Part shown: positions 24,515 to 33,689 of the stretch, piece after piece
How positions within the stretch are numbered: position 1 is the first letter of the stretch
Layout of the letters: every line of letters begins with the position of its first letter
NCBI GenBank assembly: GCA_021815405.1
Contig: JAKAGV010000002.1
Span: 248,001 to 312,000, forward strand
Direction: 5' to 3'
Origin: Bacteroidota bacterium
Lineage (GTDB): Bacteria > Bacteroidota > Ignavibacteria > Ignavibacteriales > Ignavibacteriaceae
Length of the DNA: 64,000 nt
Program-made: the position numbers and the translations under genes
Notes under the pieces: generated by a model
The model's database searches: none
What the model was told of the DNA's origin: nothing
Seen by the model: the letters and a program-made list of their open reading frames with translations, nothing else

Positions 24515-26662
24515 TTAATTCTTATTTAAAGCTTGTTTTACTCTTTCTGGATTCATCGGAAGTTGAAATAATCTTGCACCGGTTGCATCAAAAATTGCAT
24601 TGGCAACTACCGCTCCCATCAATATTATGGCAGGCTCTCCGCCTCCCTGCGGCGGTGCATTCTTGTTATCAATTATTATTGTTTCAATTTTAGGAAGCCA
24701 TGAGAATCTTGGAATTTCATAAGTATCGAAATTTAAGTCTAAGATTTCGCCGTCTCTGAAATGAATATCTTCTTTCAAAGCATAACCGAGCCCCATCGTA
24801 ATGCAGCCTTCCATCTGGATAGTTGCACCTTCCGGATTTACTGCAAGTCCCATATCCTGTGCACAAACAACCCGTTTAACTTGAACATCGCCGGTTTGTT
24901 TATTTACTTTAACCTCCGCAATAGCGGCTACTGTAGTCCCCGCATCTGTACCGCATGCAATACCAAAGCCTCTTCCGCTTGGAGCTGCTGCCGGTTTCCA
25001 TCCGAATTTCTCTGCTGCGGCTTTTAAAACATTTATCATTTTTTTATCATTCAAATTTCGAAGCCTGAATTCCAGTGGATCTATTTTAGCTTTAGCAGCC
25101 ATTATATCTATTTGAGATTCTCTTGCAAAGGTATTTGTGTTATTTCCGGGTGCTCTCCATGCACCTGTTGCAAAAGGATGAGCATTGCCTCCCCAACCTG
25201 AACCATAAACAGTGGTACTGTTATTCGGAATATCGTAAAACACCGGTGCTCCTCTTTCACCTGCATAATAAACATGATAATCCCAAAGTGTAATTTTACC
25301 TTTACCATTTATACCGGATTTTATTTTTACAATAGCTGCCGGACGAAATGAGTCATTATAGAATTCTTCTTCTCTTGTCCATGCAACTTGCACCGGTTTA
25401 CCGGTTAGTTTTGCAAGTCGTACTGCTTCGATAATTTGATTATTGCGTGATTTGCCTCCGAACCCTCCTCCAAGAAAAGGCGGAATAATTCTAACATTCT
25501 TTGAAGGAATACTGAGCTCTTTCGCAACTTCGTCTTTAGCAGGAAATGGAGTTTGGGTTGATGCCCAAACTGTTACTTTGTCTCCTTCAATTTTGGCGAC
25601 AGCAGTATGGGGTTCCATTGGTGAATGAGCTTTATACCCATCAAGGTAAGTCTCTTCAAAAATATTTTCAGCTTCACCTTCACCTTTCTTAAGATCACCG
25701 GCTTTTGCAACAACTTCACCGTTCGAGGCAGATTTAAGCAAGTGATCAAAAATATTTTTATCGTTTATTCCTGTCTTAGGTTTATCAAATTTTGCTTTCA
25801 CTTTGGAAAGCGCTATTTCAGCAACATCAGGATATTTATGCAGCAATGCAATGAAATCGCCTTCATGAATAACCTGAATGCCGTCAACTTTTTTTGCTTC
25901 AGATAAATCAACATCAACAAGCTTAGCTCCGTGAACTGGCGATCTTAAAATTTTGGCGTAAAGCATTCCCGGCAGTTGAATATCGCCGGTATATTTAGCT
26001 TTGCCTGTAACTTTTTCATAAGCATCTCTTCGATTCTCCGGCTTGCCAATTATTTTAAACTCGGAAGGTTTCTTAACTTCAGGTTTTTCTTTTAAATGAC
26101 GTTCAATCTTTTTCCCTTTTGCCAGCATTGCGTAAGAAATTTTATTCTTTCTGTTCCGGGTGTCAAATACAATTCCATTTTCAGTTGATAAATATTTCAT
26201 CGGTACTTTCAATTGCTGCGAAGCTAATTCAATTAACACGCGCCTTCCCTCTGCACCGGCAGCTCTAAGCGCAGGTCCGAAGAACCTTGTTGACATCGAG
26301 CCGAAGGTTCCCATATCCCACGGACAAAGATCTGTATCTCCCATTACCATTTTGACATTTTCAAATTTAACATCCAGTTCATCAGCGAGTTCCTGTGCTA
26401 AAGATGTAATTATTCCCTGACCCATTTCTATCTTACCGGTAAAACAGGTAACTTTTCCATCCTCTCCTATTTTTAAAAATGCATTAAAATCTGCTGGAAG
26501 ATTTTGTCCTCTTCTCTGCCGTTCCTGAGCAAACACTGAAGTATCCCAAAGCGTAAATAAAATATAAATTCCTGTACCGGCAATTTTTATAAACTCTCTA
26601 CGGTCAATTAGAGTTTCAGATTGATTATCCTTAAAATCTAGATCAAGTAATTCTTCGTTCAT
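24515..26662 (-). CDS. Xanthine-dehydrogenase-family molybdopterin-binding subunit
   Basis: 715 residues. The N-terminus carries a Tat-like signal (RREFIKIAGTGIYILF, about 22-45), then the aldehyde oxidase/xanthine dehydrogenase large-subunit fold: GEDGKVTCFTGKIEMGQGI, the hammerhead domain KVTGKAKYTGDIQLPGMLYAKILRSP, PFLGGGFGGKSR, GAWRAPGN and the C-terminal GGGEPAIILMGAVVANAI, where GGGEPA carries the usual catalytic Glu. The layout matches the IorB-type two-subunit enzymes exported folded by Tat. The substrate (N-heterocycle or aldehyde) cannot be read from sequence. It is preceded by the 2Fe-2S subunit with one base between them. Confidence 0.92.
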   Translation of the reverse strand: MNEELLDLDFKDNQSETLIDRREFIKIAGTGIYILFTLWDTSVFAQERQRRGQNLPADFNAFLKIGEDGKVTCFTGKIEMGQGIITSLAQELADELDVKFENVKMVMGDTDLCPWDMGTFGSMSTRFFGPALRAAGAEGRRVLIELASQQLKVPMKYLSTENGIVFDTRNRKNKISYAMLAKGKKIERHLKEKPEVKKPSEFKIIGKPENRRDAYEKVTGKAKYTGDIQLPGMLYAKILRSPVHGAKLVDVDLSEAKKVDGIQVIHEGDFIALLHKYPDVAEIALSKVKAKFDKPKTGINDKNIFDHLLKSASNGEVVAKAGDLKKGEGEAENIFEETYLDGYKAHSPMEPHTAVAKIEGDKVTVWASTQTPFPAKDEVAKELSIPSKNVRIIPPFLGGGFGGKSRNNQIIEAVRLAKLTGKPVQVAWTREEEFYNDSFRPAAIVKIKSGINGKGKITLWDYHVYYAGERGAPVFYDIPNNSTTVYGSGWGGNAHPFATGAWRAPGNNTNTFARESQIDIMAAKAKIDPLEFRLRNLNDKKMINVLKAAAEKFGWKPAAAPSGRGFGIACGTDAGTTVAAIAEVKVNKQTGDVQVKRVVCAQDMGLAVNPEGATIQMEGCITMGLGYALKEDIHFRDGEILDLNFDTYEIPRFSWLPKIETIIIDNKNAPPQGGGEPAIILMGAVVANAIFDATGARLFQLPMNPERVKQALNKN

Positions 26663-26663
26663 T

Positions 26664-27137
26664 TTATAATCCCCCTTCCATTTTTTTTGATGCGGATTCG
26701 ATTGCCGAAATTATTCTTTGATGAGCACCGCATCGGCACAAATTATCATCCATCTCTTTTATTATATCGGAATGCGACGGCTTCGGATTTTTCTTTAGAA
26801 ATGAATAGGCGGTTAGTATCATTCCCGGCGTACAATAGCCGCATTGCAAAGCATCATGTTCTACAAATGCTGATTGAAGCGGATGTAGCTTTCCATTCTT
26901 CTCTAGCCCTTCGATTGTCATCACTTCTTTGCCTTGAACATCTTTCATTGAAGTTTGACAAGAACGAACATCCTCATTATCTATAAGGACAGTGCAAGAG
27001 CCGCAGAAGCTTTCTCCGCAGCCGTACTTTGTTCCGGTCAATCCAAGGTCCGTTCGAAGGACCCATAAAAGCCTTCTATCACCATCAACTTCTAGTTGGA
27101 CTTGTTTACCGTTTAGTTTGAATTTGATATCAGCCAT
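26664..27137 (-). CDS. 2Fe-2S subunit of molybdenum hydroxylase
   Basis: 157 residues. The plant-type ferredoxin cluster (YGCGESFCGSCTVLID and, further on, SCQ) is followed by the CO-dehydrogenase-type second cluster domain (QCGYCTPGMILTAYSF, DDNLCRCGAHQRII), the standard two-cluster small subunit (IorA/CoxS type). It transfers electrons from the molybdopterin centre of the adjacent large subunit, with which it forms an operon. The 305-bp stretch upstream (27138-27442) is A+T-rich and shows no gene. Confidence 0.93.
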   Translation of the reverse strand: MADIKFKLNGKQVQLEVDGDRRLLWVLRTDLGLTGTKYGCGESFCGSCTVLIDNEDVRSCQTSMKDVQGKEVMTIEGLEKNGKLHPLQSAFVEHDALQCGYCTPGMILTAYSFLKKNPKPSHSDIIKEMDDNLCRCGAHQRIISAIESASKKMEGGL

Positions 27138-27442: not shown

Positions 27443-27474
27443 TTTGACAAATCGTTAATTAAGTATTAGTTTTG
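27443..27474 (+). promoter_or_regulatory. Promoter of the threonine operon
   Basis: TTTG at 27443-27446, 20 bases, then TAGTTTTG at 27467-27474: an exact Bacteroidota TTTG-N20-TAnnTTTG promoter. Initiation about 6 bases later would place the transcript start at about 27480, only a few bases before the leader-peptide ATG at 27487. Confidence 0.75.
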
Positions 27475-27486
27475 ATTTAAGTTTTT

Positions 27487-27573
27487 ATGAAAATTTCTAA
27501 ACACACATATTGTCCTAAGTCTTGTACGAAAACAACAACCGCTACAATGCCCACCTCTATGCATGGAGGCTGA
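27487..27573 (+). CDS. thrL: Threonine operon leader peptide
   Basis: 28-codon reading frame ending at TGA 27571-27573. Seven of 28 codons are Thr, concentrated in TKTTTATMPT (codons 14-23: ACG AAA ACA ACA ACC GCT ACA ATG CCC ACC). The three consecutive Thr codons (27532-27540) lie on the first strand of the attenuator hairpin and the stop codon lies in the second strand, as in classical amino-acid attenuators. No SD is visible and the transcript start is likely just upstream, so initiation may be nearly leaderless. No similarity to the E. coli ThrL sequence beyond the Thr run. Function inferred from position and structure. Confidence 0.8.
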   Translation: MKISKHTYCPKSCTKTTTATMPTSMHGG

Positions 27574-27641
27574 AGCACGGTTGTATAATTTTTTAAGATA
27601 GAAATTGGAAACCGGCTTCAGAAGATGGAGCCGGTTTTTTT
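27535..27641 (+). promoter_or_regulatory. Threonine attenuator (alternative hairpins)
   Basis: Four pairing regions can be drawn. Region 1, ACAACCG (27535-27541), pairs with CGGTTGT of region 2 (27578-27584). Region 2, CTGAAGCACGGTT (27570-27582), pairs with region 3, AACCGGCTTCAG (27609-27620), over 12 bp with one bulged A: the antiterminator. Region 3 (27609-27617) pairs with region 4, AGCCGGTTT (27629-27637), followed by T: the terminator. Ribosome stalling at Thr codons in region 1 would free region 2 to form the antiterminator and allow transcription of thrA. Confidence 0.8.
27609..27641 (+). terminator. Attenuator terminator before thrA
   Basis: Stem AAACCGGCT/AGCCGGTTT with an 11-base loop and a run of seven T, ending 43 bases before the thrA start. 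Its 5' arm is shared with the antiterminator. Confidence 0.85.
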
Positions 27642-27683: not shown

Positions 27684-30140
27684 ATGAAGATTCTTAAATT
27701 CGGCGGTTCTTCAGTAGGCGATGCCGAAAGAATTAAACACGTTATTGAAATTGTAAAACAATCTTTAGAAAAGAATAAAAAGATTGCCGTCATCTTCTCC
27801 GCACTTCAGAAAGTAACCGATAATCTTTTAAAGATGAGTCAGATGGCTGCCGCTGCTAATAACGAATACATCGACCTTTTCAAAAAATTAGAAACAAGAC
27901 ACATTTCAATTGCACAGGAAATTCTTGGAGTAAAAACTCAAAGTTCTGTAATAGCTAATTTAAAATTGACTCTAAACGAGCTTGAAGATGTTTTGCATGG
28001 CGTTTACCTTGTCAAAGAGCTTTCTCCAAGAACTCAGGATTTCATATTAAGCTTTGGCGAAAGGCTTTCTAACTTATTAATAACTCAAGCATTAAAAGAC
28101 AGAAAAGTCGACTGTGAATATCTTGATGCCAGATTTTTAATCAAAACAGATGAGTCCTTTGGCAGCGCTAAAGTTGATTTCGACATTACTTACAAAAACA
28201 TAAAAAATTATTTCAAAAACCATACAAAGCTTCAGGTTATTACCGGCTTCATTTCATCAACTGCGAACAACGAAACTACAACTCTCGGCAGAGGCGGTTC
28301 CGATTATACTGCGTCAATCTTTGGCTCTGCATTAAATGTAAAAGAAATTGAAATCTGGACAGATGTAGATGGTGTTCTTACTGCTGATCCAAAGAAAGTT
28401 AAAAAAGCTTTTCCTTTGAAGGGAATGACTTATGAAGAAGCAATGGAGCTTTCACACTTTGGTGCAAAGGTAATCCATCCTCCGACGATGCATCCTGCAA
28501 TGGAAAAGAAAATTCCAATTAGGATTAAAAACACCTTTAATCCTGATTTTGAAGGGACTGTAATTAACGATCATTCAAACATCCATCATTTTTCCATCAA
28601 AGGAATATCTTCAATTGATGACATCGCTTTGATTAGAGTACAAGGCAGCGGTATGGTAGGTGTAGCTGGTATTGCACAGAGATTGTTCGCCGCTCTCGGA
28701 ACCAGGCAAATCAATATTATTTTAATTACCCAAGCTTCTTCCGAACATTCTCTTTGCATTGCTGTGCTTCCTAAATATGCTGTACACGCCAAGAAAGCAA
28801 TACAGCAGGAATTCTATTATGAAATAAAAGAAAGATTAATCAACGATCCGGTAATTGAAACAAACCTTTCCATTATTGCTGTTGTTGGAGAAAATATGCG
28901 AAAGACCCCCGGCATTTCGGGTCGAATTTTCCAAGCTCTCGGCAAAAATGGTATTAACATAGTTGCAATTGCACAAGGTTCTTCGGAGTTAAATATTTCT
29001 ACTGTTATATCGCGTGATAACGAAGCTAAAGCTTTAAATGCTCTTCATGATGCTTTCTTTCTCTCAATTGCTAAGACAGTTAATTTATTTGTAGTCGGAA
29101 CTGGATTGGTAGGCAGTACACTTTTACAGCAGATAAATCAACAGACGGAATTTTTAGCGCATGAATATTTTCTTAACGTAAAGATTATCGGACTAGCAAA
29201 TAGCCGTAAGATGCTGATTGATTCCAACAGTATCGATCCGGTAAATTGGAAAGATAGATTGAATCAGGAAGGAACAAAAACAGATCTCAACTTCTTGATT
29301 GATGAAATGAAGAAGTTAAATCTTCCAAACAGCATTTTTGTTGACTGCACTGCAAGCGAAAAAGTTCCTTCACGTTATAAAGATGTCCTTGATTCAAGTA
29401 TTTCAATTGTAACTCCGAATAAACGTGCTAACGCCGGCAAGTTTGAATATTATTTACAATTGAAGCAATCGGCATTGAAGCATAACGTAAAGTTTTTATA
29501 TGAAACCAATGTCGGTGCCGGATTACCAATTATCAATACTTTAAATGACTTGGTTTCAAGCGGCGATAAAGTTTTTAAGATTGAAGGCGTAATGTCTGGA
29601 ACACTCAGCTTCCTCTTCAGTTCTTATTCGAATGGAAAGTCATTTAGCCAGATTGTTCGAGAAGCTAAAGAAAAAGGCTACACTGAACCGGACCCGCGCG
29701 AGGATCTAAACGGAATGGACGTTGCTAGGAAGCTTTTAATACTTGCAAGAGAAACAGGTCTCTCTCTTGAATTGAAAGATATTAAGGTTGAAAACTTAGT
29801 CCCGGAAAAAGCAAGACAAGCCAAATCGATTGAAGAGTTTTTCAAAAAGTTGGAAGAATACGACGAAGAGTTTGAGAAGAAGCGAAAATGTTCGGAAGAT
29901 AAAGGAAACGTTTTGAGATATATCGCCTCGCTGGAAAACGGTAGAGCCGAAATTTCCCTTCAGGAAGTAAATAACCATCATCCGTTTTATTCTTTATCAG
30001 GAAGCGACAACATCTTTGCCCTTTACACCAAGCATTACCAGGACCGCCCAATTGTTATTAAAGGTCCCGGTGCCGGTGCCGATGTTACCGCAGCCGGAGT
30101 GTTTGCAGATATAATCAGAATTTCTAATTACTTGAGTTAG
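27684..30140 (+). CDS. thrA: Bifunctional aspartokinase / homoserine dehydrogenase I
   Basis: 818 residues, the normal length for ThrA. The aspartokinase domain begins at KFGGSSVGDAERI (residues 4-16) and includes TLGRGGSDYTASI; two ACT regulatory domains occupy about 310-465 (VQGSGMVGVAGIAQRLFAAL, TPGISGRIFQAL). The homoserine dehydrogenase half starts at FVVGTGLVGSTLL (about 471) with VTPNKRANAG and the catalytic-region GVMSGTLSFLFSSY. It performs the first and third steps from aspartate toward threonine and methionine. First gene of the operon, behind the Thr attenuator; the ACT domains also predict feedback inhibition by threonine. Confidence 0.96.
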   Translation: MKILKFGGSSVGDAERIKHVIEIVKQSLEKNKKIAVIFSALQKVTDNLLKMSQMAAAANNEYIDLFKKLETRHISIAQEILGVKTQSSVIANLKLTLNELEDVLHGVYLVKELSPRTQDFILSFGERLSNLLITQALKDRKVDCEYLDARFLIKTDESFGSAKVDFDITYKNIKNYFKNHTKLQVITGFISSTANNETTTLGRGGSDYTASIFGSALNVKEIEIWTDVDGVLTADPKKVKKAFPLKGMTYEEAMELSHFGAKVIHPPTMHPAMEKKIPIRIKNTFNPDFEGTVINDHSNIHHFSIKGISSIDDIALIRVQGSGMVGVAGIAQRLFAALGTRQINIILITQASSEHSLCIAVLPKYAVHAKKAIQQEFYYEIKERLINDPVIETNLSIIAVVGENMRKTPGISGRIFQALGKNGINIVAIAQGSSELNISTVISRDNEAKALNALHDAFFLSIAKTVNLFVVGTGLVGSTLLQQINQQTEFLAHEYFLNVKIIGLANSRKMLIDSNSIDPVNWKDRLNQEGTKTDLNFLIDEMKKLNLPNSIFVDCTASEKVPSRYKDVLDSSISIVTPNKRANAGKFEYYLQLKQSALKHNVKFLYETNVGAGLPIINTLNDLVSSGDKVFKIEGVMSGTLSFLFSSYSNGKSFSQIVREAKEKGYTEPDPREDLNGMDVARKLLILARETGLSLELKDIKVENLVPEKARQAKSIEEFFKKLEEYDEEFEKKRKCSEDKGNVLRYIASLENGRAEISLQEVNNHHPFYSLSGSDNIFALYTKHYQDRPIVIKGPGAGADVTAAGVFADIIRISNYLS

Positions 30141-30342: not shown

Positions 30343-31389
30343 ATGTCATCGAATAAGATACCGGTAGGGGTTCTTGGCGCTACTGGAAGCGTCGGACAAA
30401 AATTCATTGAATTATTAAATAACCATCCATGGTTCAAAGTAGTTGAAGTTGCAGCTTCGGAAAGATCCGCAGGGAAGAAGTACAAGGATGCTGTCAATTG
30501 GATACTATCTTCCCCTCTGCCCAAAGATGTAGCAGAGCTTATAGTGAAAGACACCGAACCTAAATTGGAAAGCAAAATAGTATTTTCAGGATTGGATTCT
30601 AGCGTTGCAGGTCATGTTGAAGAAGCATTTGCTAAGAAGGGCTACGTCGTTGTTTCAAATTCGAAAAACCACAGGATGGATAAAGATGTTCCTCTTCTTG
30701 TACCGGAAATAAACGGTGACCATCTTGAGATAATTAAAACTCAGCAATATAACGGCGGATGCATTGTAACAAACCCGAATTGCTCAACAATAGGTATGGT
30801 GCTCGCTCTAAAACCGCTTCAAGATAAGTTCGGTCTTGAAGCAGTAAATGTTGTAACTATGCAAGCCTTATCAGGTGCCGGTTATCCCGGTGTTGCAAGT
30901 CTTGATACGATTGATAATGTTATTCCGTATATCTCGGGAGAAGAACCGAAGCTTGAAACTGAGCCTCTCAAAATTCTTGGAACATATGAGAATGGTAAAA
31001 TTATTGATGAACATATTAAGATAAGCGCTCAATGCAATCGTGTTTCTGTTGTTGACGGACATCTTGAATGTGTTCAGGTAAAGCTAAAGAAAAAAGCTAC
31101 TAAAGAAGAAATTATAAGCGCTTGGAAAAATTTTACTTCGGAAGCCCAGGAATTAAATCTTCCTACAGCGCCGGTTCATCCGGTACATTATTTTGAAGAA
31201 GAAAAATATCCCCAGCCAAGAATCCACCGCAACATTGATAAAGGCATGGCTGCATCAGTAGGAAGACTGCGTGAAGATCCTCTTTTCGATTATAAGTTCG
31301 TGGTGCTTTCCCATAATACCAACAGAGGTGCTGCTGGCGGTGCCTTGCTCTGTGCTGAGCTTATGAAAGCTAAGGGATATATTAAATAA
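30343..31389 (+). CDS. asd: Aspartate-semialdehyde dehydrogenase
   Basis: 348 residues, close to the archaeal/fungal-type enzyme rather than the usual bacterial type. GVLGATGSVGQKFIELL (Rossmann, residues 9-25), VVVSNSKNHRMDKDVPLLVPEING, the active site TNPNCSTIGM with the catalytic Cys, and LSGAGYPGVASLD. It reduces aspartyl phosphate to the semialdehyde, the step between the two ThrA activities. It lies between thrA and thrB, with a 202-bp leader of its own and a terminator-like hairpin after its stop. Confidence 0.95.
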   Translation: MSSNKIPVGVLGATGSVGQKFIELLNNHPWFKVVEVAASERSAGKKYKDAVNWILSSPLPKDVAELIVKDTEPKLESKIVFSGLDSSVAGHVEEAFAKKGYVVVSNSKNHRMDKDVPLLVPEINGDHLEIIKTQQYNGGCIVTNPNCSTIGMVLALKPLQDKFGLEAVNVVTMQALSGAGYPGVASLDTIDNVIPYISGEEPKLETEPLKILGTYENGKIIDEHIKISAQCNRVSVVDGHLECVQVKLKKKATKEEIISAWKNFTSEAQELNLPTAPVHPVHYFEEEKYPQPRIHRNIDKGMAASVGRLREDPLFDYKFVVLSHNTNRGAAGGALLCAELMKAKGYIK

Positions 31390-31437: not shown

Positions 31438-32373
31438 ATGAAAAAAAAAATAAAAGTATTTGCGCCTGCTTCGGTAACCAATGTAAGCTGCGGTTTTGAT
31501 GTATTAGGCTTTGCAATTGATTATCCGGGAGACGAGCTTGTCTTAAAAATAAAAAATGAACCTGGTGTGACTATTACTAAAATTACAGGCGATCATCAAC
31601 GCCTTCCCTTCGATCCTTTGAAGAATACCGCGGGTTTATCATTGATTTCTTTGATAGAACATTTAAATTTTAAAAAAGGAGTTGAAATAGAAATACACAA
31701 GAAGATGGCATTAGGAAGCGGATTAGGTTCTAGCGCTGCCAGCGCCGTTGCAAGCGTGTTTGCATTTAATGAACTCCTAGGCAGTCCTTTATCTAAGAAT
31801 GAACTACTTTCCTTCGCACTTGAAGGAGAAAAACTTACGTGCGGCGGTACTCCTCATGCAGATAATGTTTCAGCATGCTTAATGGGAGGTTTCGTGATTG
31901 TCAGAAGTCTAACACCGATAGATGTTATAAATATTCAAACTCCGAAAAATCTTTACTGTACTATTGTTCATCCTCATCTCGAGATTAATACGGCGGATAC
32001 CAGAAAGATCCTTCGTAAGCAGATTCTCTTAGCCGATGCCGTTAAGCAATGGGGAAACGTTGCTGGTCTAGTTGCAGGATTAACCAGTGGTAATTATAAT
32101 TTAATAAGCCGCTCACTTCAAGATGTAATTGTCGAGCCAATAAGATCGATTTTAATTCCCGGTTTTTATGAAATTAAGAACGCGGCAATAGATGCCGGCG
32201 CTCTAGGCTGCAGTATTTCAGGTTCAGGTCCTTCGATATTTGCATTTAGCAAATCAAAAACCATTGCGGATAAAGTCGGAACAGCCATGATGGAAGCTCT
32301 ATCAGCAATAGAAGTAGATGGCGATCTCTACATTTCAAAAATTAACCAACAGGGTCCAAGAGTAATTGAATAA
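31438..32373 (+). CDS. thrB: Homoserine kinase
   Basis: 311 residues, GHMP kinase family. The N-terminus FAPASVTNVSCGFDVLGFAID is the ThrB signature, followed by the ATP-binding loop MALGSGLGSSAASAVASVFAFNELL and the C-terminal GALGCSISGSGPSIFAF. It phosphorylates homoserine for threonine synthase, encoded 11 bases downstream. Confidence 0.95.
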   Translation: MKKKIKVFAPASVTNVSCGFDVLGFAIDYPGDELVLKIKNEPGVTITKITGDHQRLPFDPLKNTAGLSLISLIEHLNFKKGVEIEIHKKMALGSGLGSSAASAVASVFAFNELLGSPLSKNELLSFALEGEKLTCGGTPHADNVSACLMGGFVIVRSLTPIDVINIQTPKNLYCTIVHPHLEINTADTRKILRKQILLADAVKQWGNVAGLVAGLTSGNYNLISRSLQDVIVEPIRSILIPGFYEIKNAAIDAGALGCSISGSGPSIFAFSKSKTIADKVGTAMMEALSAIEVDGDLYISKINQQGPRVIE

Positions 32374-32384
32374 GAAATAAAATT

Positions 32385-33689
32385 ATGAAACTTTACAGTA
32401 CTAATAATAAAAATAATATTTCAACATTCAAGGAAGCGGTACTTAAAGGAATTGCTGACGACGGTGGTTTATTTATGCCTGTTGAACTTCCGAAGCTTCC
32501 TCCAAGTTTTTTCCATGATATTTCAAAGCTGACATTTAAAGAAATATCCTTCATAGTCGCAAATAATCTATTAAAGGATGATTTACCTGTTGAAGTAATT
32601 TCCAAGATAATTGATTCGACAATTACGTTCGATGCACCACTAGTAAAGTTAAATGAACAAATTAGCACACTCGAATTATTCCACGGTCCGACTCTTGCGT
32701 TCAAAGATTTTGGCGCTAGGTTTATGTCGGCGGTTATGTCTTATTTAACTAAAGATGAAGACAAAGAAATTATCATTCTCGTTGCCACTTCCGGTGATAC
32801 CGGAAGCGCAGTAGCTAATGGCTTCCTTAATGTTAAAGGAATTAAGGTGGTTCTACTTTATCCATCAGGAAGAGTAAGTAAAATCCAAGAACAGCAATTG
32901 ACAACTCTTGATCAAAACATAACTGCTCTAGAAGTTGATGGAACTTTTGACGACTGCCAGAGGCTTGTAAAGCAGGCATTCGCCGATGCTTCTTTAAAAA
33001 AACACGCAATTCTTTCTTCTGCTAACTCGATAAATATTGCTAGACTAATACCGCAGTCATTTTATTATTTTAATGCTTATGGAAGAACTGAAAATAAAAA
33101 GCTGCCGTTTTATGTTTCGGTTCCAAGCGGAAATTTTGGAGATCTTACAGGCGGCTTATTTGCTTATAAGATGGGATTGCCTGTAAGTAAATTCATCGCT
33201 GCTGTAAATGCAAACGATGTCTTCCCGAAATATCTCGAGACTTCTGTTTATGAAGCTAAGTCATCTGTACGAACCTTATCAAACGCTATGGATGTAGGTA
33301 ATCCCAGCAATTTTGCACGCATCATTGATTTGTATAATCAAAGTTATCAAGAAATTAAAAATGAAATTTACAGCGCTAGTTTCTCAGACATAGATACTAT
33401 AGGAGCTATTAAAGAAGTATTTTCAAAATATAATTATATAATCGACCCTCATGGTGCGGTTGGATATCTTGCTTTGAAAAAATTCCTGGCAGAGAAAAAT
33501 CAAAAAGAGTGTAACGGAGTATTGCTTGAAACAGCGCATCCGTCAAAGTTTGCAGATATTGTTGAAAAGGTATTGAACAAGAAGATCGAGATACCGGATG
33601 CTCTTCAAACTTGTCTTGTAAAAAGGAAGAAGTCGATAAAGATTTCTAAAGAATATGAGTATCTGAAAAACTTTGTTCTCAGTATTTAA
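32385..33689 (+). CDS. thrC: Threonine synthase
   Basis: 434 residues. Type II threonine synthase: ADDGGLFMPVELP near the N-terminus, ELFHGPTLAFKDFGARF with the PLP-binding Lys in FKDFG, ATSGDTGSAVANGF, and VPSGNFGDLTGGLFAYKMGLP. It converts phosphohomoserine to threonine with PLP. Last gene of the thr cluster; a MITE begins 6 bases after its stop and separates it from proC. Confidence 0.95.
   Translation: MKLYSTNNKNNISTFKEAVLKGIADDGGLFMPVELPKLPPSFFHDISKLTFKEISFIVANNLLKDDLPVEVISKIIDSTITFDAPLVKLNEQISTLELFHGPTLAFKDFGARFMSAVMSYLTKDEDKEIIILVATSGDTGSAVANGFLNVKGIKVVLLYPSGRVSKIQEQQLTTLDQNITALEVDGTFDDCQRLVKQAFADASLKKHAILSSANSINIARLIPQSFYYFNAYGRTENKKLPFYVSVPSGNFGDLTGGLFAYKMGLPVSKFIAAVNANDVFPKYLETSVYEAKSSVRTLSNAMDVGNPSNFARIIDLYNQSYQEIKNEIYSASFSDIDTIGAIKEVFSKYNYIIDPHGAVGYLALKKFLAEKNQKECNGVLLETAHPSKFADIVEKVLNKKIEIPDALQTCLVKRKKSIKISKEYEYLKNFVLSI

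Follow-up and report, generated by a model that had tools for sequence, protein, structure and literature searches.

The thr operon and its leader region

Within the window (the whole 64-kb stretch of DNA that was analyzed), thrA, asd, thrB, and thrC form an operon that is directly preceded by a short open reading frame (ORF) and a set of competing RNA pairings, the whole element lying inside the intergenic stretch between divergent genes (Table 1). Because the upstream neighbor is divergent, the terminator of this element can act only on the transcript entering thrA and cannot serve an upstream gene. Three features typical of leader-peptide attenuators were found here: a short ORF in which codons for the operon product are clustered (7/28 Thr, with an in-frame bias over 28 leaders), an intrinsic terminator between this ORF and the first structural gene, and a conserved antiterminator (regions 2 and 3, 2:3) that is mutually exclusive with the terminator (regions 3 and 4, 3:4).

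Table 1 Features of the thr locus, in window coordinates.
Feature	Position	Strand	Basis
Divergent molybdoprotein gene pair, upstream neighbor	24515-27137	-	
Upstream promoter box TTTG, TTGACA-like (TTTGACAAA)	27443-27446	+	TTTGACAAA or TTGACAAA before the Thr leader in most relatives
-7 box TAGTTTTG, fits Bacteroidota sigma-A TAnnTTTG	27467-27474	+	Consensus in PMC9723704; conserved before the leader ATG in relatives
Leader peptide ORF, 28 codons (MKISKHTYCPKSCTKTTTATMPTSMHGG) + TGA, 7 Thr	27487-27573 (ATG at 27487, TGA 27571-27573)	+	Sequence; in-frame Thr bias over 28 leaders
Control codons, Thr 14, 16, 17, 18, 20, 23 and Met 21	27526-27555	+	Sequence; 6-15 codons 5′ of the stop
Region 1, ACAACCG (Thr codons), pairs with CGGTTGT at 27578-27584	27535-27541	+	Cognate versus non-cognate test
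Region 2, antiterminator 5′ arm CTGAAGC-A-CGGTT, overlaps the leader stop TGA	27570-27582	+	Pairing, covariation
Region 3, AACCGGCTTCAG, antiterminator 3′ arm and terminator 5′ arm	27610-27621	+	Pairing, covariation
Region 4, GGAGCCGGTT plus U run, terminator 3′ arm	27627-27641	+	Sequence, alignment
thrA, fused aspartokinase-homoserine dehydrogenase	27684-30140	+	Pfam AA_kinase, ACT, NAD_binding_3, Homoserine_dh
asd, aspartate-semialdehyde dehydrogenase	30343-31389	+	Pfam Semialdhyde_dh and _dhC
thrB, homoserine kinase (GHMP kinase)	31438-32373	+	Pfam GHMP_kinases N and C; thrB identity inferred from context
thrC, threonine synthase	32385-33689	+	Pfam Thr_synth_N + PALP

Both strands of the window were scanned for short ORFs in which five or more residues out of 12 are identical, followed by a terminator no more than 115 nt away and an antiterminator of -13 kcal/mol or better. 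The thr leader was the single match, and ten dinucleotide-shuffled windows gave one match in total (0.1 per shuffled window), a rate that serves as a guide figure since the thresholds were set after the locus had been seen.

The preliminary description of this DNA had proposed a 28-codon leader with seven Thr codons, a 12-bp 2:3 antiterminator with one bulge, and a 3:4 terminator with a T run, and all of these were recovered. The antiterminator (12 bp with one bulged A, -19.1 kcal/mol) had a duplex energy matched by 0/500 shuffles (shuffle mean -9.5). The terminator AACCGGCTTC/GGAGCCGGTT (27610-27636) has a predicted energy of about -21 kcal/mol and ends in a U run at 27635-27641, hairpin and U run together occupying about 27607-27641. 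The 1:2 hairpin that had also been proposed stood in part: the pairing is present, but it is weak on the window sequence alone (p = 0.06) and gains its support from relatives.

Distribution of the element in relatives

The search for thrA homologs covered 164 genomes from the order, 197 from the class, and GTDB contigs. The regions upstream of these homologs yielded 28 leaders of the same plan, a set in which some leaders represent one species from two collections or are closely related. Within the window's genus, 11/11 genomes having the region assembled carry the element; one more genome shows the terminator part only, at a contig end, and another is cut off. Six additional genomes from the family also have it before thrA, as do 5/5 genomes of the sister family f3 and members of f14 and f5, two other families of the class. 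One locus, L009, has the same plan with an unrelated sequence. Relatives whose terminator stems contain bulges escaped a strict scan for perfect stems.

thrA also occurs without the element, in several other genera of the family and in almost all members of the sister family f2, so that the element is gained and lost. Relatives that keep thrA but lack the Thr codons or break the 2:3 pairing had been named beforehand as the observation that would count against an attenuator. The former exist as genomes devoid of the whole element, but a leader and terminator kept with the 2:3 pairing lost were not clearly found among the 28 leaders, where L130 is the weakest case.

In a phylum-wide search with a second model, R2, the out-of-class matches that were inspected were ordinary gene-end terminators without leaders. 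A MAG contig labeled Patescibacteria (L060) carries a thrA (55% identical) preceded by the attenuator; its binning is doubtful, and the contig is likely misbinned. Separately, Cytophagales-type thrA leaders (L043, L045, L046, L049, L051, L053, L058, L067, L068, L072, L074, L076, and L085) end in ..I-T-G* with a conserved ATTACGGGGTAGCKCCC, and the strict scan found no terminator after them. Aspartokinase genes of f2 (L173, L176, and L178-L182) have Thr-rich ORFs about 55-70 nt upstream, most of which end in ..ACGCGTTAA or similar, and no terminator was seen by eye after these ORFs.

Codon signature and conserved pairing

Over the 28 leaders, ACN codons were found 185/693 times in frame, versus 41 and 18 in the other two frames, and 41% of codons -16 to -3 encode Thr. 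The stop codon of most leaders is the UGA within the CUGAAG of region 2, so that a ribosome at the leader stop must cover region 2.

The 2:3 pairing was better than that of shuffles (p ≤ 0.016) in 27/28 leaders, the remaining one being L130, whose helix is mismatched (p = 0.13). The 1:2 pairing, taken one sequence at a time, had a median p of 0.16. When cognate and non-cognate arms were compared among 19 clade representatives (clades defined by us, roughly at genus level), cognate pairing was stronger for both 2:3 (p = 3e-4) and 1:2 (p = 2e-4).

In an alignment of 25 sequences, the paired fraction was 89% for 2:3 and 94% for 3:4, where slid controls reached at most 49% and 56%, respectively. 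The covariation score of 2:3 was 0.174 (shuffles 0.123 ± 0.011, 0/500 reaching it; slid ≤0.084), and that of 3:4 was likewise above all 500 shuffles, in a shuffle control that takes no account of relatedness among leaders. Covariation of the regions, which had been suggested as a check, is thus borne out for 2:3 and 3:4 by these scores, but the number of 2:3 pairs changed on both sides was not above that of shuffles. Since changes are shared by descent, the signal rests on few independent events. Column pair 12-55 of the 2:3 helix is C-G in 12/25 and U-A in 12/25 sequences, and six of the U-A sequences have an A·C mismatch at the corresponding 3:4 position, which argues that the 2:3 helix is kept for its own sake and not through the terminator alone. 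The 2:3 pairing is also preserved with different letters in L127 (GGATGAAG/CTTCATCC), L132 (GGAAGTTGG/CCGACTTCC), and L134 (CGGGCT/AGCCCG).

Promoter boxes and predicted transcript start

The preliminary description had pointed to an exact TTTG-N20-TAGTTTTG promoter. This pattern is indeed present (27443-27474, 20-nt spacer), but it is no better than chance as stand-alone evidence, with 2 matches in the window versus 0.78 expected; the boxes, weak from the window sequence alone, are supported by their presence in relatives. The sigma-A boxes TAnnTTTG of Flavobacterium psychrophilum are located at -12 to -5 (PMC9723704). With the -7 box placed in the same way, the thr leader transcript is predicted to start at about 27479, the 12 nt between box and ATG leaving a 5′ untranslated region (UTR) of ~8 nt. 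In the same genome, the corresponding distance is 11 nt for the Trp, 10 nt for the His, and 11 nt for the Cys leader, and the four leaders would have UTRs of 6-8 nt. Elsewhere, a box-like octamer ends 4 nt 5′ of the ATG in L008, L041, L044, L062, and L080 (three found by script, two degenerate ones by eye); if this octamer is the box, the AUG would itself be +1, as the octamer ends only 4 nt before it.

The transcript had been suggested to begin a few bases before the leader ATG, with initiation perhaps leaderless. With a predicted UTR of ~8 nt, leaderlessness, itself a prediction, would hold only approximately for the thr leader. For comparison, 5′ UTRs of <10 nt make up only about 3.7% in B. 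thetaiotaomicron (PMC7366714), and leaderless mRNAs represent 5.5% in F. psychrophilum (PMC9723704).

The same module before other genes

A covariance model, R1, was built from the Thr leaders; it begins at the leader stop and ends with the U run, control codons excluded. Besides a Thr leader before thrB-thrC, R1 matched the leaders of homoserine dehydrogenase in two genera (Thr+Met, MNNQVFTYNPMCTTTTMCMLMTT...), of O-acetylhomoserine sulfhydrylase (metY) in two f3 genomes (Met-rich, MTLNSAMWMCMIMMFPQGS), and of cysteine synthase (cysK) in L210 (Cys-rich); the names of these genes, which lie outside the window, were read from translated sequences, Pfam having been applied to window proteins only. 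Those weak R1 matches (below about 38 bits) that were inspected turned out to be gene-end terminators. As R1 leaves the control codons out, it could be tested independently whether the codons agree with the downstream gene, and the outcome was the one that a ribosome-based model predicts.

The metY leaders are of two types, those of f3 sharing the Thr module and those of f2 having a separate sequence with their own antiterminators. In the window's genome, metY (L249) is instead preceded by a SAM riboswitch (RF00162, 77 bits). On balance, we consider it more likely than not that codon swaps retargeted a single Ignavibacteriales attenuator RNA family to Thr (thrA, thrB), Thr+Met (homoserine dehydrogenase), Met (metY), and Cys (cysK). 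The family would then comprise a ribosome-dependent form of methionine attenuation, whose place upstream of metY is taken by a SAM riboswitch elsewhere in the lineage. Such a backbone with varied codons would be a natural series for specificity change in leader-peptide sensors.

Met-rich leaders with a terminator and an antiterminator were seen before metY at L194/L195/L245/L246 and at L264-L267.

Proposed mechanism and alternative readings

Covariation, in-frame Thr codons, conservation, and a codon identity that tracks the downstream gene all favor the ribosome-dependent threonine attenuator that had first been suggested, and the element is very probably a transcription attenuator of the thrA-asd-thrB-thrC operon. 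Building on the elements, conservation, and covariation documented above, we propose a course of events that postulates where transcription starts, that the ribosome stalls, how its movement is timed with that of the polymerase, and that the system responds to threonine. RNA polymerase would start about 8 nt 5′ of the leader AUG, and a ribosome would load at once. With plentiful Thr-tRNA, the ribosome would reach the UGA at 27571, inside region 2, and hide this region, so that the 3:4 terminator would form and transcription would end at about 27641. With scarce Thr-tRNA, it would stall on Thr codons 14-20 and leave region 2 free to pair with region 3 as the antiterminator, the polymerase then continuing into thrA. 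Without translation, pairing of region 1 with the 3′ tail of region 2 would make terminator formation the default.

A variant of this mechanism, not exclusive of it, is that the leader reads Thr and Met jointly as a sensor of the homoserine branch. thrA was the sole match in the window's genome to the homoserine dehydrogenase query used, so that Met codons beside the Thr codons may add a methionine signal. Met makes up 12.6% of the control codons (-16 to -3, 28 leaders) versus 1.8% of residues in the window proteins, and the stand-alone homoserine dehydrogenase genes of relatives have MCTTTTMCMLMTT-type leaders. However, the window leader has a single Met (codon 21) where stalling would free region 2, composition by itself does not demonstrate sensing, and the leaders are related by descent, so that the Met enrichment does not come from independent samples. 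Joint reading is accordingly a possibility that we regard as rather doubtful.

Mutually exclusive terminators and antiterminators are also common to riboswitches, T-boxes, and TRAP-like systems, and a SAM riboswitch is used before metY in the same genome, so a ligand- or protein-switched terminator with an incidental short ORF could be envisaged. Yet no riboswitch, T-box, or Bacteroid-trp (RF01692) reached the Rfam gathering cut-off in the window, where tRNA was the only Rfam match, and such a switch would not predict in-frame Thr codons, a fixed stop position, and codons that track the downstream gene, which makes it very improbable. That the ORF is a functional peptide gene with its own terminator and no regulatory role would suit a short ORF followed by a terminator but is hardly credible, as conservation of the peptide is confined to Thr runs and to short motifs at its ends, the ORF accompanies biosynthetic operons, its codons track the operon product, and the 2:3 helix is conserved.

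Relation to known attenuators

The ribosome-dependent attenuator proposed here follows a mechanism and a logic that are those of classical attenuation and already known; what seems new is the RNA family, which is apparently undescribed, and the way it is redeployed with different codons. The Rfam Thr_leader model (RF00506) scored 15.2 bits (E = 4 in a 601-base search) where the gathering cut-off is 55, in line with the initial view that the element has the layout of the enterobacterial thr operon without sequence similarity to it. Like enterobacterial thrL, it combines a Thr-rich leader peptide, 1:2/2:3/3:4 logic, and a place before thrA. In the E. coli thr leader, the Thr codons are accompanied by Ile codons. 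The Ignavibacteriales leader instead has Thr with Met, a stop inside region 2, a predicted near-leaderless start, and a Bacteroidota-type promoter, and its operon includes asd. With comparative support, the Ignavibacteriales can be credited with a full thr attenuator that has no sequence relationship to the textbook one. Its predicted near-leaderless start raises the question of how ribosomes load on such leaders; the phylum makes little use of Shine-Dalgarno sequences.

Comparative predictions of attenuators were reportedly made by Vitreschak et al. in 2004, with threonine attenuators and some Bacteroidetes/Chlorobi cases said to be listed, and by Lopatovskaya et al. in 2010; the Ignavibacteriales set probably falls outside their coverage because the genomes are later. 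With the Bacteroidota attenuators of F. psychrophilum and with Bacteroid-trp, which we take to be an attenuator, the Ignavibacteriales thr leader shares the phylum and the general mechanism, but it has no Rfam match. Bacteroid-trp is listed in PMC2864571, and leader-peptide attenuators were inferred for amino-acid operons of F. psychrophilum in PMC9723704, the main text of which makes no mention of threonine. Mycobacterial polycysteine leaderless ORFs act as attenuators according to the part of the review PMC9031893 that cites Canestrari et al. 2020; they are similar in that consecutive cognate codons lie in a short ORF located at the 5′ end or close to it, but they belong to another phylum, concern cysteine, and, as that part of the review has it, act on downstream translation. 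A literature search, whose evidence is thin, returned no case of methionine leader-peptide attenuation.

Other leaders in the window's genome

Besides the thr attenuator, the window's genome has leader ORFs for His, Trp, and Cys, each followed by a terminator. Its ilvD gene showed no such leader. A trpE-like gene is preceded by a leader reading ...NWWWWFG... and then a terminator (L330, G000:C21), its 2:3 pairing being not significant in a simple test (p = 0.34). The leader of hisG reads ...TVHHHHWIYG... and is likewise followed by a terminator (L328, G000:C30; 2:3 p = 0.03), and that of cysK (MKTKSNHRETFQAAVCCCQ...) contains a CCC run before its terminator (L283, G000:C17; 2:3 p = 0.01). Leaders of cysK with such a Cys run (CCC) were also observed in the window's genus (L273-L281).
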